Shown one piece after another: positions 4,776-10,175 of a stretch of 36,653 bases of DNA. Under the pieces are notes generated by a model. The model was not told the DNA's origin. It saw only the letters and a list, made by a program, of their open reading frames with translations, and did no database searches. The position numbers and the translations under genes were made by a program. Position 1 is the first letter of the stretch; each line of letters begins with the position of its first letter. This DNA is from an uncultured Cryomorphaceae bacterium (lineage in GTDB: Bacteria > Bacteroidota > Bacteroidia > Flavobacteriales > Schleiferiaceae), in the NCBI GenBank assembly GCA_905182675.1, contig CAJJCK010000108.1:1-36653 (forward strand), in the 5' to 3' direction.

Positions 4776-4876
4776 GTATCTGTAATTATGATTCTGTATA
4801 AAATTAAACATAATGAACCACATCTCTTTTATTTAAAAACTTCAATTCAGGGTTTTTATCGAGAGGACCTAAAGCG

Positions 4877-4884
4877 TATATTTG
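4877..4884 (+). promoter_or_regulatory. Probable -7 promoter element of the metal transporter operon
   Basis: TATATTTG matches the Bacteroidota sigma-A -7 consensus TAnnTTTG exactly and ends 24 bases before the ATG of the binding-protein gene. No clear TTTG -33 element is seen at the expected spacing. Confidence 0.5.
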
Positions 4885-4908
4885 TTATTTAGAATTAATA
4901 CAAATAAG

Positions 4909-5826
4909 ATGAGAACCATTCTCAAAGCACTCCTACTTATTGCAGTATTTCAGTCGTGTGAGCCTGGTCGGTCTGAAAAAAACCAATCGTCTGAAAAAAT
5001 TAAGATCGTTTGTACCACAAGCATATTAACGGACTGGGTATTAAACATAGCGACCGAGGAAGCAGCGGTCTATTCATTACTTAATAAAGGAATAGACCCT
5101 CATGTATATAAGCCGTCAAAAAAAGACCTAGACCTGCTTCGTTCGGCAGATATAATTATTTATCACGGACTTCATCTTGAGGGTAAAATTATCACCGTTT
5201 TAGAGAAGATGAAGGGCCCGTTAGTTATAGACGTGTCAAAAAACTTTCCTAAATCAGCAATAATAACAGACCCGAGTTTCCCTGCATCACAAGACCCTCA
5301 TTATTGGTTTGACGTAGCGTTAGTTAAAAACGCATTAACCACGGTAACAAAAGAGATTTCGGTTAATTATCCTGGTCTTGAGGCAGAAATGAAGGTTAAT
5401 TTACAAGAGTACCAAGGGGAGATAGATTCAGTTACCATCGAGGTACAAAAAACGATAGACAACATAGATCCCGGTCAACGGATTGTGATAACAACACATG
5501 ATGCACTCAGTTATTTCGCTCGCGCTTTTGGCCTGACTGTTAATACCCTTCAAGGCGCTTCTACCGTAAGCGAGTATGGGCTTAGAGAAATCACAGATCT
5601 TGTTAATTTTATATGTGAGAGAAAGGTTAAAGCAATTTTCTTAGAAAACATAGTAAGCCCACAGGCCATGGAAAGTGTTCAGAGGGGGTGCCAAGAAAAA
5701 GGATGGAACGTAGCGCTTGGCCCAGAGCTACTTAGTGATTCCCTGGGTCAAAAAGAAGACCAGGACACATATTTAGAAATGCTCCTGTTTAACGCACGCA
5801 CGATTGCTTCATATTTAACTAAGTAA
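4909..5826 (+). CDS. Metal ABC transporter substrate-binding lipoprotein (ZnuA/TroA family)
   Basis: This is a cluster A-I binding protein that captures Zn2+ or Mn2+ for the membrane permeases encoded next to it. A lipobox (VFQSC, Cys17) anchors it to a membrane. Probable metal ligands are His65 (DPHVYKPS), His131 (DPHYWFD), His197 (TTHDALSY) and Asp277 (LLSDSLG). Their spacing of 66, 66 and 80 residues is nearly that of Treponema TroA (H68, H133, H199, D279). The third ligand is His, as in ZnuA/TroA, not Glu as in PsaA/MntC. The histidine-rich loop of classical ZnuA is absent. The protein is 305 residues from ATG 4909; the open frame to TTG 4882 overlaps the promoter element. It is first in an operon with the two permease genes. 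Confidence 0.9.
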   Translation: MRTILKALLLIAVFQSCEPGRSEKNQSSEKIKIVCTTSILTDWVLNIATEEAAVYSLLNKGIDPHVYKPSKKDLDLLRSADIIIYHGLHLEGKIITVLEKMKGPLVIDVSKNFPKSAIITDPSFPASQDPHYWFDVALVKNALTTVTKEISVNYPGLEAEMKVNLQEYQGEIDSVTIEVQKTIDNIDPGQRIVITTHDALSYFARAFGLTVNTLQGASTVSEYGLREITDLVNFICERKVKAIFLENIVSPQAMESVQRGCQEKGWNVALGPELLSDSLGQKEDQDTYLEMLLFNARTIASYLTK

Positions 5827-5829
5827 TAG

Positions 5830-7134
5830 TTGGAAATACTCTATAAATATTTAACCCTCGCTGACCCAAACGTCAGGTATGTAGTGCTTTCAATCGTGTT
5901 GTTAGGAGGGGTAAGTGGTGCTGTAGGCTGCTTTAATTTTTTACAAAAGAAAACACTAGTCGGAGAGACCGTAGCGCACAGTATGCTTCCCGGCGTATTG
6001 GTTGCTTTCTTGCTTAGTGGAGTGAAAAACCCTTATATTTTAGTTACTGGTGCCGCTATTAGTGGATGGCTAAGTATTTTACTGGTGGACGCAATCACGA
6101 ACCACAGCAAAATAAAAAGTGACAGCGCCTTGGCTATTGTTTTGTCAAGTTTTTTTGGGTTTGGCATAGTGTTACTTACGATGATTCAAAGCAGGTACTC
6201 TGGAAACCAAAGCGGACTAGATCATTATATTTTTGGAAGCGCAGCAGCGATGTCTCCAGAGGACAGTATTGCGTTTGCTTGGGTATCAATTCTTGTGGTC
6301 CTTCTGGTGATCGCTTACTATTTTAATTTAAAGGCCATCATTTTTAATCCCGACTATGCACAAAGCATTGGTATTAATAGTAAAAGAGTAAACGGATTAA
6401 TCAGTTTTATCACCATTCTTAGTATTTCCGTAGGAATAAAAGCGGTAGGAATTGTTATGATGAGCGCCCTGCTTATTATACCACCAACAGCAGCTCGGTT
6501 TTGGACATCAAGGTTAGTGCCCATGCTACTGCTTAGTGGTTTTTTTGGTGCATTTTCTGGATGGATTGGGGCTTTTGTTAGTTATGCAAAAACATCTATG
6601 CCCACAGGGCCGTGGACGATAGTAGCGGTCAGTTGCATTGCTTTTGCATCCATGTTGTTTGCGCCCAAAAAAGGAGTGTTACATCAGCGCTGGAGTAAAC
6701 TACTGTTGAAACGAAGAATTAACGAGGAAAACCTCCTCAAGGCCGCTGTTCAAAACGAGGTTAGGGGAAAAGGGAGGCTTTTTACAAGAGAGTCAATCAT
6801 GCAACGTCAATTTTTCGAGTTCAAGCGTTGGAAAAGAACAATAAATAGACTGGCTCGCAAAAAACTAGTCCTCAAAGTAAATACAGGACATACATTAAGC
6901 GCAAAGGGCCGCAGCTATGGCGCCGAGATAGACAGAAGACACAAGATATGGGAAGTTTATTTGCAGCGGAGAATGCAGATGAGCCTCCACCTTGTCCATG
7001 ACGAAGCTGAAACCATGGAGCACTTCCTAACACCTGAAATAGAAGATGAAATTTTAAGCGAACTAGGCCTGTGTTCAAGGTTTAACCCCATATTAGAAAT
7101 TCACGAACTCATCCCAGACACCAACTTAACTTAA
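5830..7134 (+). CDS. Metal ABC transporter permease fused to a DtxR/MntR-like regulator domain (YtgCR architecture)
   Basis: Residues 1-280 form an ABC-3 family permease with about eight hydrophobic helices and the cytoplasmic coupling motif FNPDYAQSIGI at 172-182. After a basic linker (residues 279-297) comes a winged-helix segment at about 298-365 and then a DtxR-type dimerisation/metal-sensing helix pair at 369-415. The sensor ligands align with DtxR: His371 (H79), Glu375 (E83), His390 (H98), Glu394 (C102 position), Glu397 (E105) and His398 (H106). Glutamate instead of cysteine at 394 is the MntR pattern (E99/E102/H103). Chlamydial YtgCR has the same order of domains, and its regulator part is released by proteolysis. 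The start is TTG at 5830, just after the previous gene's stop; no ATG precedes the first helix. The next permease overlaps by one base (TAATG). Confidence 0.88.
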   Translation: MEILYKYLTLADPNVRYVVLSIVLLGGVSGAVGCFNFLQKKTLVGETVAHSMLPGVLVAFLLSGVKNPYILVTGAAISGWLSILLVDAITNHSKIKSDSALAIVLSSFFGFGIVLLTMIQSRYSGNQSGLDHYIFGSAAAMSPEDSIAFAWVSILVVLLVIAYYFNLKAIIFNPDYAQSIGINSKRVNGLISFITILSISVGIKAVGIVMMSALLIIPPTAARFWTSRLVPMLLLSGFFGAFSGWIGAFVSYAKTSMPTGPWTIVAVSCIAFASMLFAPKKGVLHQRWSKLLLKRRINEENLLKAAVQNEVRGKGRLFTRESIMQRQFFEFKRWKRTINRLARKKLVLKVNTGHTLSAKGRSYGAEIDRRHKIWEVYLQRRMQMSLHLVHDEAETMEHFLTPEIEDEILSELGLCSRFNPILEIHELIPDTNLT

Positions 7135-7967
7135 TGGATGCGTTTTGGATCATACTGACCGGATTTTTAGTGGCCTCCTCAACAGGAATGCTAGGGAATC
7201 TACTGTTGCTCAGAAAAATGAGTATGATGGGCGATGCGCTTAGTCACGCGGTATTGCCAGGAATAGTTGTGGCTTACCTCATCAGCGGCTCTCGGGCCTC
7301 GCTTCCGCTTTTTTTAGGAGCGATCATTATGGGTGTGCTAACCACTTTTTTAATCCAATTTTTCTCTGCTAAAGGCAAAATGCAATTAGACGCTGCGATG
7401 GGAACGGTATTTACGTTTTTATTTGCGGTAGGGGTAATCATGGTAACACGTTTTGCGGGAGAGGCAGACATAGACGCGGACTGTGTACTACATGGTGAGC
7501 TAGCGTTTGTTCCTCTGCAGGTTTCTGGTTTTATGGGGCTGGGTGTTCCAGGTCCCGTTTGGACGCTGCTGGTGCTTTTAGCAATAATCCAATTTATTTT
7601 TTGGATGGGTTATAAAGGATGGCTCATCACCTCTTTTAATGCAGAATATGCACAAAGCATAGGGGTTAAAACCATGATTTGGCACTATAGCCTTATGGCC
7701 GCAACAAGCGTCGCAACGGTGGTTAGTTTTGAAAGTGTAGGTGCTATTTTAGTGATTGCATTTCTCGTAGTTCCCGCAGCAACAGCATACCTACTCACAG
7801 ATAAGCTTCGTCTCATGCCTGTTTTAATAATGTCTCAAGGCGCACTAAGTGCCGTGGGAGGCTACTTTATATCTGAGGCACTGGAGGCATCTATAAGCGG
7901 GTCTATGTCTGTAATGAGCTTTTTTCTGTTTGTTGCCGCTTTTCTTTGGAGCAAAAAAAAGGGCTAA
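7134..7967 (+). CDS. Metal ABC transporter permease, second subunit
   Basis: This 277-residue ABC-3 family membrane protein has about eight hydrophobic helices and pairs with the preceding fused permease to form the transmembrane channel for Zn2+/Mn2+. It carries the same coupling motif (FNAEYAQSIGV) and the family signatures LSHAVLPGI near the N-terminus and VGAILVIAFLVVPAATAY. It has no C-terminal regulatory extension. Its ATG overlaps the preceding stop, so the genes are translationally coupled. The order binding protein, permease-regulator, permease is that of ytgA-ytgCR-ytgD, but the gene for the ATPase (ytgB equivalent) is not here. The last few codons lie over the hairpin that probably ends paaABC transcription from the other side. 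Confidence 0.9.
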   Translation: MDAFWIILTGFLVASSTGMLGNLLLLRKMSMMGDALSHAVLPGIVVAYLISGSRASLPLFLGAIIMGVLTTFLIQFFSAKGKMQLDAAMGTVFTFLFAVGVIMVTRFAGEADIDADCVLHGELAFVPLQVSGFMGLGVPGPVWTLLVLLAIIQFIFWMGYKGWLITSFNAEYAQSIGVKTMIWHYSLMAATSVATVVSFESVGAILVIAFLVVPAATAYLLTDKLRLMPVLIMSQGALSAVGGYFISEALEASISGSMSVMSFFLFVAAFLWSKKKG

Positions 7968-7984
7968 AGTCCCCACCTTAGCCC
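7953..7984 (-). terminator. Rho-independent terminator downstream of paaABC
   Basis: GGGCTAA (7961-7967) and TTAGCCC (7978-7984) form a 7-bp stem with a 10-base loop. Eight A residues at 7953-7960 become a T run just after the hairpin on the minus strand, so it should end transcription leaving paaC. It overlaps the 3' end of the permease gene, whose stop codon is in the stem. Confidence 0.75.
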
Positions 7985-8119
7985 TCACTCGCTTAACACA
8001 AAAACACTTACGATTACTACATCGTTCTCATACAAAAAGCAAATATGATGCCGAAAACGTGTGGCCGCTATATTTTTGTGTTAATAAATTGATGTTTAAA
8101 CGAATAGCGAAGAGGAAAG

Positions 8120-8911
8120 CTACCAGGTTGCCTCGGGATGTGTCCTTGCTAGGCTTTGCATTTCCGCAAGTATAAACCCAAGCTCAGAGGTGTGAATACC
8201 ATATCTACCACCTGTTTGCATCCAGAGCTCAGGGCTAGGAATAACGAGTGTAGCTTCTTTTAACACCTCTCCTGTTTTATGTAGCCAAACCTCTCTAAGT
8301 GATTCAAACCTCACAAAAGAATCGTCAAGCATATCGAACATCGGATGTGCCTCAAACAACTCTCCGGACCACATCCAAAGACGGTTGATGCTTTCCTGCA
8401 TTTTATGATGACTCTCGTCTGTTCCGTCTCCTAAACGAATAACCCATTCAGCACTCCACTGCGCTTGGTAGGAAACTTCCTTTAAAGCCTTCTCAGCAAC
8501 ACCAGCGAGGGTTTTGTTAGAACAACTACGAAGCTTATCAAAGAGATAAAAATTAAAAGTATCAAAGAAGAAGCTTCTTGCAATGGTGTCTCCCCAGTGC
8601 CCGTTTGGCTGTTCGAGCAACAGCGCGTTTCTAAACTTCAAGTGATCTCTAAAATAAGCCAAGGTGTCCTCTGTTACCGCACCCCCCTCCATTTTAGCAA
8701 GCTCTTGGTATAACAAACGAGCCCTGCCTATATGGTCTAGAGAGGTGTTAATGATTGCGATATCTTGTTCTAAAACAGGGCCCTTGGAACACCATTTACT
8801 TAATTGTTGCCCTAACATCAGGGCGTCATCTGCAAGAAAAAAGAAATACTCCTTGAGCGCTTCTTCTGAAGTAAAATCACGTTTTACCCCGTTTAACCAA
8901 CCTCCTGCCAT
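8120..8911 (-). CDS. paaC: Phenylacetyl-CoA 1,2-epoxidase, structural subunit PaaC
   Basis: PaaC is the ferritin-like, non-catalytic partner of PaaA in the multicomponent monooxygenase that epoxidises phenylacetyl-CoA. It is 263 residues, near the usual ~250. Family signatures include LDHIGRARLLYQEL, WSAEWVIRLGDGTDESH and the C-terminal HTSELGFILAEMQSLAR. The helix that would carry metal ligands in a catalytic homologue reads EVSYQAQWS, without the ExxH motif, as expected for the structural subunit. The gene begins 3 bases after the paaB stop and ends the minus-strand group. In many bacteria paaD follows at this place; here the next thing downstream is a terminator. Confidence 0.93.
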   Translation of the reverse strand: MAGGWLNGVKRDFTSEEALKEYFFFLADDALMLGQQLSKWCSKGPVLEQDIAIINTSLDHIGRARLLYQELAKMEGGAVTEDTLAYFRDHLKFRNALLLEQPNGHWGDTIARSFFFDTFNFYLFDKLRSCSNKTLAGVAEKALKEVSYQAQWSAEWVIRLGDGTDESHHKMQESINRLWMWSGELFEAHPMFDMLDDSFVRFESLREVWLHKTGEVLKEATLVIPSPELWMQTGGRYGIHTSELGFILAEMQSLARTHPEATW

Positions 8912-8914
8912 GGC

Positions 8915-9202
8915 TTACATGTGTTGAACATCGTCTGGGATGTCATAAAAAGTGGGGTGTCTATATACTTTGTCGTCACTTGGGGTAAACAAGGCTTCTT
9001 TTTCATCAGGAGAACTCGCTGTAATCTCTTCTGAAGGAACGACCCAAATACTGATTCCTTCAGAGCGACGAGTGTATACGTCTCTGGCGTTTTTTATAGC
9101 CATATTAGAATCAGGAGCGTGCAGGCTGCCTACGTGTTTATGGGAAAGCCCATTCTTGCTTCTTAGGAAAACTTCCCAAAGCTTCCAATTTGTTGTGCTC
9201 AT
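8915..9202 (-). CDS. paaB: Phenylacetyl-CoA 1,2-epoxidase, subunit PaaB
   Basis: PaaB is a small protein needed for function of the PaaABCE epoxidase. It is 95 residues starting at MSTTNWKLWEVFLRSKNGL, the normal length for the family. The signatures WEVFLRSKNGLSHKHVGSLHAPD and the central ARDVYTRRSEGISIWVV are characteristic. The open frame upstream to 9268 runs into the paaA coding region and its lysine-rich residues are not part of the family, so ATG 9202 is chosen, 16 bases after the paaA stop. It is co-transcribed with paaA and paaC. Confidence 0.93.
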   Translation of the reverse strand: MSTTNWKLWEVFLRSKNGLSHKHVGSLHAPDSNMAIKNARDVYTRRSEGISIWVVPSEEITASSPDEKEALFTPSDDKVYRHPTFYDIPDDVQHM

Positions 9203-9218
9203 GGTGGTTTTTTTAGGT

Positions 9219-10175
9219 TTATGCGGCGGACGCTTCTTTGTTTTTACGCTTTGCTTGTTTTTCAGCAAATGCGTTGGCGGCTTCTCTCACCCAAGCACCA
9301 TCCTCATGTGCTTTAACGTGGTGAGCAATGCGTTCTTTATTACACGGGCCATTGCCCTTCACGACCTGATAGAACTCGTCCCAATTAATATCACCAAAGT
9401 CATAGTGTCCACGGCTTTCGTTCCAAACCAAGTCTTTGTCTGGAATAGTTAAACCAAGGTATTCGGCTTGAGGAACGGTTTTATCAACAAACTCTTGGCG
9501 AAGCGTGTCGTTGCTTTTTCTTTTTATTTTCCAAAGCATGCTTTGCTCAGAATTTGGGCTGTTATCATCAGATGGGCCAAACATCATTAATGAAGGCCAC
9601 CACCACCTATTCAAACTTTCTTGTGCCATTTCTATTTGCTCAGGTGTTCCTTGGGTCAATTTCATGACAACTTCGTATCCCTGTCGCTGGTGAAAACTCT
9701 CCTCTTTACAAATCTTAACCATCGCCCTTGCGTAAGGACCATAGGAAGTACGCGTGAGCATTACTTGGTTTTGAATGGCCGCACCGTCTACAAGCCAACC
9801 AATAGTACCCATATCAGCCCAAGAAGGGGTAGGATAATTAAAAATCGAACTGTATTTGGCTTTTCCGCTCTGTAAATCGGCGATCATTTTGTCGCGCGGC
9901 TCCCCAAGCGTTTCAGCTGATGAGTAGAGATAAAGACCATGTCCCGCCTCGTCCTGAACCTTTGCTAGAAGGATTAATTTAGCACGCAGGGAAGGAGCTC
10001 GAGTGATCCAATTCGCCTCCGGCTGCATTCCAATTATCTCACTATGAGCGTGTTGAGATATTTGACGTATGAGCGTCCTGCGGTATTTTTCGGGCATCCA
10101 ATTCTTTGGTTCTACCTTTTTTTCGGCGTCCACATAAGATTGGAATTTGTCTTCCAGCGATACATTCGTTCCCAT
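9219..10175 (-). CDS. paaA: Phenylacetyl-CoA 1,2-epoxidase, catalytic subunit PaaA
   Basis: PaaA is the di-iron oxygenase that forms ring-1,2-epoxyphenylacetyl-CoA, drawing electrons from PaaE. It is 318 residues (typical ~310). Two ExxH motifs of a ferritin-like di-iron site are visible: DEAGHG in the first helix pair and [11 protein letters not shown] in the second. Further family signatures are the segments [37 protein letters not shown] and [15 protein letters not shown]. The C-terminus ends in a short basic tail. It is the first gene of the minus-strand group paaA-paaB-paaC and lies 99 bases from the divergent paaE. A good -7 box lies 22 bases upstream of its ATG. Confidence 0.95.

Follow-up and report, generated by a model that had tools for sequence, protein, structure and literature searches.

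Organization of the Locus and Structure of the Fusion Protein

The DNA analysed here (the window, 36,653 nucleotides) comes from an uncultured Cryomorphaceae bacterium and carries a metal importer operon that consists of an SBP gene and two permease genes only, which leaves the SBP/permease/ATPase set incomplete. As shown in Table 1, the first permease is fused to a C-terminal DtxR-fold sensor domain. The fusion gene begins 3 bases after the end of the SBP gene (5826) and overlaps the start of the second permease gene (7134). The nearest solved structures of the SBP were 3mfq and TroA 1toa. Since relatives in this family carry Zn, Mn or Fe, the kinship of the SBP is compatible with several metals.

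Table 1. Features of the importer operon and of the fusion protein, in window coordinates.
Feature	Position	Strand	Remarks
Putative Bacteroidota -7 promoter element TATATTTG (TAnnTTTG)	4877..4884	+	Sequence read
Imperfect palindrome TTATTTAGAATTAATACAAATAA, Fur-like box, probable operon operator	4885..4907	+	3 mismatches to TTATTTAGAATnATTCTAAATAA
Metal-binding lipoprotein SBP, ZnuA/TroA family	4909..5826	+	Pfam ZnuA E 3e-60; likely ATG start 4909
Permease/DtxR-fold sensor fusion, 434 aa	5830..7134	+	Single uninterrupted frame, TTG start
ABC-3 permease part, residues 15-277	5872..6660	+	Pfam PF00950 E 1.1e-51
Fixed-length tether P279-E300, 22 residues	6664..6729	+	Mostly within predicted helix 283-311
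Helix-turn-helix and wing, residues 310-357	6757..6900	+	Fold retained, DNA-reading sequence unconserved
Metal-binding and dimerisation domain, residues 358-414	6901..7071	+	Pfam PF02742
Type A tail C415-x2-F-x-P-x2-E-I-H425	7072..7104	+	Type B without tail
Second ABC-3 permease, no fused domain	7134..7967	+	Pfam E 5e-44

A sequence-only reading of the window had described a permease and a DtxR/MntR-like sensor in one frame, and the uninterrupted frame with its two Pfam domains agreed with it. The ABC-3 family match spanned the whole membrane part, and the Fe_dep_repr_C match (PF02742) covered residues 358-413 (E 1.1e-13). The full-length frame was found again in 9 congeneric genomes at 75-93% identity, and therefore the fusion is not a sequencing artefact. 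The frame is intact there and at >100 further loci, which rules out a fusion produced by chance or by a frameshift.

The fusion was modelled with AlphaFold2 on a 63-row alignment (mean pLDDT 84), and the model was compared with solved structures by VIA-align. Residues 13-281 matched the PsaBC permease with Z 33.8, and residues 294-427 matched DtxR with Z 16.6 (rmsd 2.1 Å, 128 aa). The predicted sensor domain comprised a helix-turn-helix (HTH), two wing strands and dimerisation helices, that is, a full winged helix, and a continuous helix of residues 283-311 ran into its helix 1. The order of the parts, an ABC-3 permease and then a C-terminal DtxR-fold domain, is that of chlamydial YtgCR, as the earlier reading had recognised. 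In-frame ATG, GTG or TTG codons near the junction lie at residues 257, 275, 276, 283, 293 and 324. An internal start producing a free sensor domain is unlikely, since no candidate among these stands out and residue 324 falls inside the domain.

Distribution of the Fusion and the Probably Shared ATPase

Permease-repressor fusions are known from 11 phyla (Thompson et al., 2012, as reported in PMC5599777), and therefore the fusion type itself is not new. A further 125 Bacteroidota-type fusions were collected in this work; the expectation that such a protein would be unusual outside Chlamydiae did not hold. Matches at E<=1e-20, mostly full-length fusions, were obtained in 43 of the 60 genomes of the taxonomic family. 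The best 80 loci from 84,980 species genomes belonged to Bacteroidota and near kin. Pontibacter, Reichenbachiella and Marivirga were represented by named strains, the named relatives nearest to the window were Schleiferiaceae, and no Chlamydiota occurred among the 80.

The fusions occur in two kinds of operon. Type A, to which the window belongs, has the order SBP, fusion, permease (32 fusions), and type B has the order mntR, SBP, ATPase, fusion, permease (93 fusions). None of the 32 type A loci held an ATPase or an mntR gene, and type A formed a single clade (32 rows, SH-aLRT 100). The genome of the window carries both types, with type B on contig C88. In this sister operon (L004, G000:C88), a putative outer-membrane protein gene of 291 aa (7536-8411) separates the fusion gene from the second permease gene. 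Genes that by the look of their sequences resemble those of phenylacetate degradation are found near both metal operons, paaA/B/C-like genes at 8120-10175 of the window and a paaZ-like gene with a thiolase at 599-5637 of L004; this may be a coincidence.

One close metal-type ATPase was found in each of 11 genomes checked, while further matches were about 32% identical. In the genome of the window it is encoded by the sister type B operon (L004, 9664-10464). A 99%-complete congener showed the same gene set, with both transporters and one close ATPase, which makes an assembly gap an unlikely cause of the missing ATPase, and therefore the two importers probably share an ATPase. It appears that one ATPase per genome serves two permease/SBP sets, one of them probably the window's set at 4882-7967.

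The genomes also encode separate regulators. Each of 11 genomes checked had a single unambiguous freestanding MntR, its HTH intact, and a FUR-family protein was present in all five genomes checked for it. Because a freestanding MntR accompanies the fusion in 11 of 11 genomes, the system is not the one-gene transporter-sensor device that had been suggested.

Divergence of the DNA-Reading Part

The HTH and wing of the fusion were compared with those of the freestanding MntR in 72 operons that carry both proteins. The mean pairwise identities of the HTH, wing and metal parts were 0.27, 0.21 and 0.60 in the fusion, compared to 0.45, 0.53 and 0.62 in MntR. Within the genus of the window, the dN values of the HTH and the metal part were 0.262 and 0.083 for the type A fusion (ratio 3.2), 0.540 and 0.075 for the type B fusion (ratio 7.2), and 0.211 and 0.161 for MntR (ratio 1.3). 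Only dN ratios were used, and no dN/dS, since synonymous sites were saturated. In the genus of the window, the HTH dN was only 1.7 times that of the permease.

Moreover, the recognition-helix residues S-V-T were kept in the MntRs of the 72 operons, while the corresponding columns of the fusions had no dominant residue apart from buried ones. The DtxR N-terminal HTH family (PF01325) gave no Pfam match in the window's fusion and none in 21 fusions even at E<=5. In a larger set, 5 of 63 fusions matched weakly (best E 0.011), none reaching the Pfam cut-off, compared with 18 of 18 freestanding MntRs from fusion-bearing operons; the yardstick here is the operon MntRs, and chlamydial YtgR, a proven repressor of the same architecture, lies outside this set. 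The length of the fusion HTH also varied, from 57 to 67 residues between E300 and G360. The HTH and wing were the fastest-evolving parts of the fusion, and these results suggest that the DNA-reading part was largely lost while the metal site was kept. Of the complete winged helix claimed earlier, the fold was confirmed in the model, but the DNA-reading sequence was not preserved.

Some HTH residues were conserved. In type B, Arg was found in 88 of 93 fusions at the column of window residue Q327. The genus of the window keeps W334, R336, T337 and R340, of which R336 and R340 are basic residues of the recognition helix. These positions may serve in docking or, in type A, still in DNA contact. 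Type A may still bind DNA, because the winged helix and R336/R340 are kept and the HTH dN only moderately exceeds that of the permease.

Conservation of the Metal Site and the Type A Tail

The predicted metal ligands of the fusion are H371, E375, H390, E394, E397 and H398, at the positions given in the sequence-only reading, and their spacing equals that of DtxR H79/E83/H98/C102/E105/H106, a mix of ancillary and primary site residues. The Glu that had been noted at the third core position, as in MntR, is E394 at DtxR C102. One position was missing from the earlier list: N301, in helix 1 of the sensor domain, occupies the place of the N-terminal primary ligand (DtxR M10, MntR D8), and this column was N or D in all fusions. 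The ligands were kept in 125 of 125 fusions, with E or D at the E394 position; one search pattern included E397-H398, so the conservation of these two was partly selected in that set, and the set from the family genomes, searched with no such filter, agreed with it. In addition, a helix of the form RxHRLWExYL/F was common to the fused domain and the freestanding MntR.

The two operon types differed in the tail that follows. The type A consensus is C415-x2-[FY]-x-P-x2-E-I-H, while in type B the motif is D-P-H and the Cys is missing. C415 (window 7072-7074) was found in 32 of 32 type A fusions and in 0 of 93 type B fusions, and the form of the tail, Cys-EIH or DPH, tracked the transporter type exactly. 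The Cys and EIH tail of type A possibly reflects a change of metal preference that accompanied the Fur-like promoter box described below.

Promoter Boxes and Gene Control

Upstream of the SBP gene, TATATTTG, a putative -7 element of the operon of the kind found in Bacteroidota promoters, is followed by the palindrome TTATTTAGAATTAATACAAATAA. The TTTG of TATATTTG and TTATTTAGAATTAATACAAATAA lie in a block that was kept at 10 of 10 congeneric loci, and the DNA farther upstream had diverged. Similar palindromes, judged by eye, precede the SBP gene in most type A operons of other genera that were examined (L033, L035, L037, L039, L041, L046, L049 and L053).

A pattern search for the Fur-like box, allowing <=3 mismatches, was run together with a reversed control pattern, which gave 0 matches. 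The box also stood before sufA-like/sufB genes in two species, a TonB-dependent receptor gene and the operon of an FAD-binding subunit, as well as before some genes without an obvious connection to iron. In two species it lies some 240-260 bp ahead of a gene for a DEAD-box helicase (G023:C36:13639-13661, L166; G046:C106:2097-2119, L167), which likewise has no obvious tie to iron. These sequence patterns point to Fur, or to a global regulator similar to it, as the probable reader of the box. That the fused domain reads it is unlikely, because the fused HTHs differ among genera and the box is the same. Since the box of the window is shared with suf and TonB receptor genes, other proteins appear to regulate the genes.

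The type B operons have a different box. TTTAGN6CTAAA, searched as a regular expression, occurred within 310 bp of mntR in 48 of the 72 operons, and 53 of its 76 exact copies fell in 1.6% of the DNA. In the genome of the window, the genus form, TTTAGYTTTGCCTAAA, occurs once without mismatch, upstream of mntR on C88. This MntR-type box was not found before the window's operon or before the type A operons looked at.

The Tether and Its Counterpart in Feo Operons

In 125 of 125 fusions, exactly 22 residues make up the tether that follows the last membrane helix. In light of the structure prediction, this constant length and the continuous helix speak against a flexible cleavage linker, although a protease might still act on it.

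A related protein was found in iron transport operons. In a survey of the phylum, Fe_dep_repr_C proteins of about 340 aa adjoined freestanding DtxR-type genes, and 18 of these Feo-operon proteins were collected (L140, L141 and 16 loci among L146-L161), of which 17 had the DtxR-type gene next door. In this protein a single membrane helix is followed by a linker, a DtxR-like domain and a pair of FeoA domains, and at the two fully read loci (L140:2815-3840 and L141:2780-3802) it lies upstream of split feoB genes. Its membrane helix and linker gave a gapless alignment with those of the permease fusion (hhalign E 4e-12), and the 22-residue spacing was found wherever the PxxG[LIVF] motif occurs (15 of 15). 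It retains a closely similar metal domain and gave no Pfam match to the DtxR HTH at the cut-off. That the tether persists in a protein lacking the permease argues for a sensor that operates at the membrane.

Proposed Function of the Fused Domain

Building on the observed architecture, conserved metal site, unconserved DNA surface, fixed tether, separate operators and freestanding MntR, we propose, with about an even chance of being right, that the fused domain senses metal in the cytosol while tethered to the membrane, and restrains the importer to which it belongs. Since the metal site is kept and the DNA-reading part appears largely lost, the domain more likely stops the transporter than switches genes. 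The fusion would serve as one permease subunit, of two, in an ABC importer of the Mn/Fe type, whose ATPase would most likely come from the sister operon on C88, and the DtxR-fold domain would hang off its last membrane helix by a rigid helical tether of constant length. On the cytosolic side, the domain would bind the imported divalent metal and change its own conformation or pairing, and the metal-loaded domain would then restrain the transporter in a form of substrate trans-inhibition. This restraint would act as fast feedback atop a slower gene control, exerted by MntR for the type B operons and probably by Fur for the window's type A. A point against this is that the domain is present on one of the two permease subunits, so that a dimer like that of DtxR could form only between two transporters or with a different partner.

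MetNI is an example of a substrate-inhibited importer. In ModABC of Methanosarcina acetivorans, CorA and MgtE, substrate-sensing domains close the importer (PMC10710835). The fusion, for which this is a proposal, would share with them a cytosolic domain that shuts the transporter in response to the imported substrate, but its sensor has the DtxR fold and is part of a permease subunit. The term "DtxR" is absent from the text of that review. Compared with the repressors B. subtilis MntR, C. diphtheriae DtxR and D. radiodurans DR2539, the fused domain has the same fold (Z 14-17) and ligands, but it is membrane-bound and has no Pfam match to the N-terminal HTH, and in type A it adds the invariant Cys415.

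It is unlikely, though conceivable, that the tethered domain instead uses its dimerisation helices, nearly identical to those of the freestanding MntR, to pair with that protein, either holding it at the membrane, with de-repression while the transporter is idle, or giving it metal. The regulators of the DtxR family that adjoin the tethered sensor at 72 ABC-type and 17 of 18 Feo-type loci point this way, as does the RxHRLWExYL/F helix of both proteins, and a partner devoid of the DNA-reading helix would inactivate an MntR dimer. However, the type A operons, including that of the window, have no neighbouring MntR (0 of 32), and no MntR-type box was found before the window's operon or the other type A operons looked at.

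We regard as very doubtful that the C-terminal domain, cleaved off or acting at the membrane, represses its own operon with metal. In its favour and against the tethered sensor, YtgR, of the same architecture, is cleaved from YtgCR and is a proven repressor (PMC5599777, PMC6504234), and in the window the DtxR fold is complete, the basic recognition helix is conserved within the genus and an operator-like palindrome lies upstream of the operon. YtgCR (CT069), like the fusions of the 11 phyla, is an ABC-3 permease-DtxR-fold chain within a metal ABC operon. A system of the YtgCR type would have no known metal regulator other than the fused domain, whereas MntR (11 genomes, every Bacteroidota genome checked for it) and FUR-family proteins (five genomes) are present here. 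In the fusions studied here, moreover, the DNA-reading helix is unconserved and the tether, constant in length, is predicted to be helical, and the boxes point to MntR and probably Fur. A released repressor, one of the two branches left by the sequence-only reading, also fits poorly with an HTH and wing that are the least conserved parts of the protein. Its repression of its own operon is at odds with the 4824-4908 region, where the expected target carries a box that other operons share and that recurs in genera with unrelated fused HTHs. The other branch, gating of the transporter, is the better supported as an inference, and the tethered-sensor reading is the best supported overall.

That the domain is a relic of an ancestral fusion or an assembly tag, with a structural metal site and a role only in folding or docking (e.g., to the shared ATPase), is highly improbable: the HTH has strongly diverged and the fusion-specific type B Arg at the Q327 column resembles a docking contact, but a regulatory-type metal site that is invariant in 125 of 125 fusions down to its ancillary residues, with a closely similar domain in the Feo-operon counterpart, goes beyond what would be expected of a relic.

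The default view of permease-DtxR fusions, taken from chlamydial YtgCR, is that of cleaved repressors. The comparison suggests that Bacteroidota re-use the repressor fold as a membrane-tethered metal sensor and leave gene control to MntR or Fur. If this is true, these manganese/iron ABC importers would have an in-built feedback, of which we found no description for this importer family, and the presence of a repressor and a repressor-like domain within one operon would be explained.

A Possible Common Module

The tethered sensor of the fusions and that of the Feo operons may be one and the same device. We tentatively suggest, at somewhat less than an even chance, that a DtxR-fold sensor no longer able to read DNA, joined by a rigid tether of 22 residues to a membrane helix, constitutes a general Bacteroidota module, which controls ABC-3 permeases (as a fused domain) and FeoB (as a separate TM-sensor-FeoA-FeoA protein) post-translationally, each paired with a freestanding MntR/DtxR that controls the genes. 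PgMntR of Porphyromonas gingivalis has an N-terminal DNA-binding domain and twin FeoA domains and binds DNA (PMC4805248). Like the Feo-operon protein, it is a DtxR-family protein with two FeoA domains; the Feo-operon protein differs from it in having a membrane helix, a feature not described for PgMntR, and in its lack of a Pfam HTH match at the cut-off. The pairing of the fusion with the tethered Feo-operon sensor makes the idea testable in culturable Pontibacter, Reichenbachiella and Marivirga.

In addition, two longer permease fusions, of 496 aa (L143:2762-4252) and 494 aa (L162:4807-6291), were observed in which the DtxR-fold domain is followed by an additional FeoA-like domain at the C-terminus. 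The middle part of the fusion at L162 was more HTH-like.
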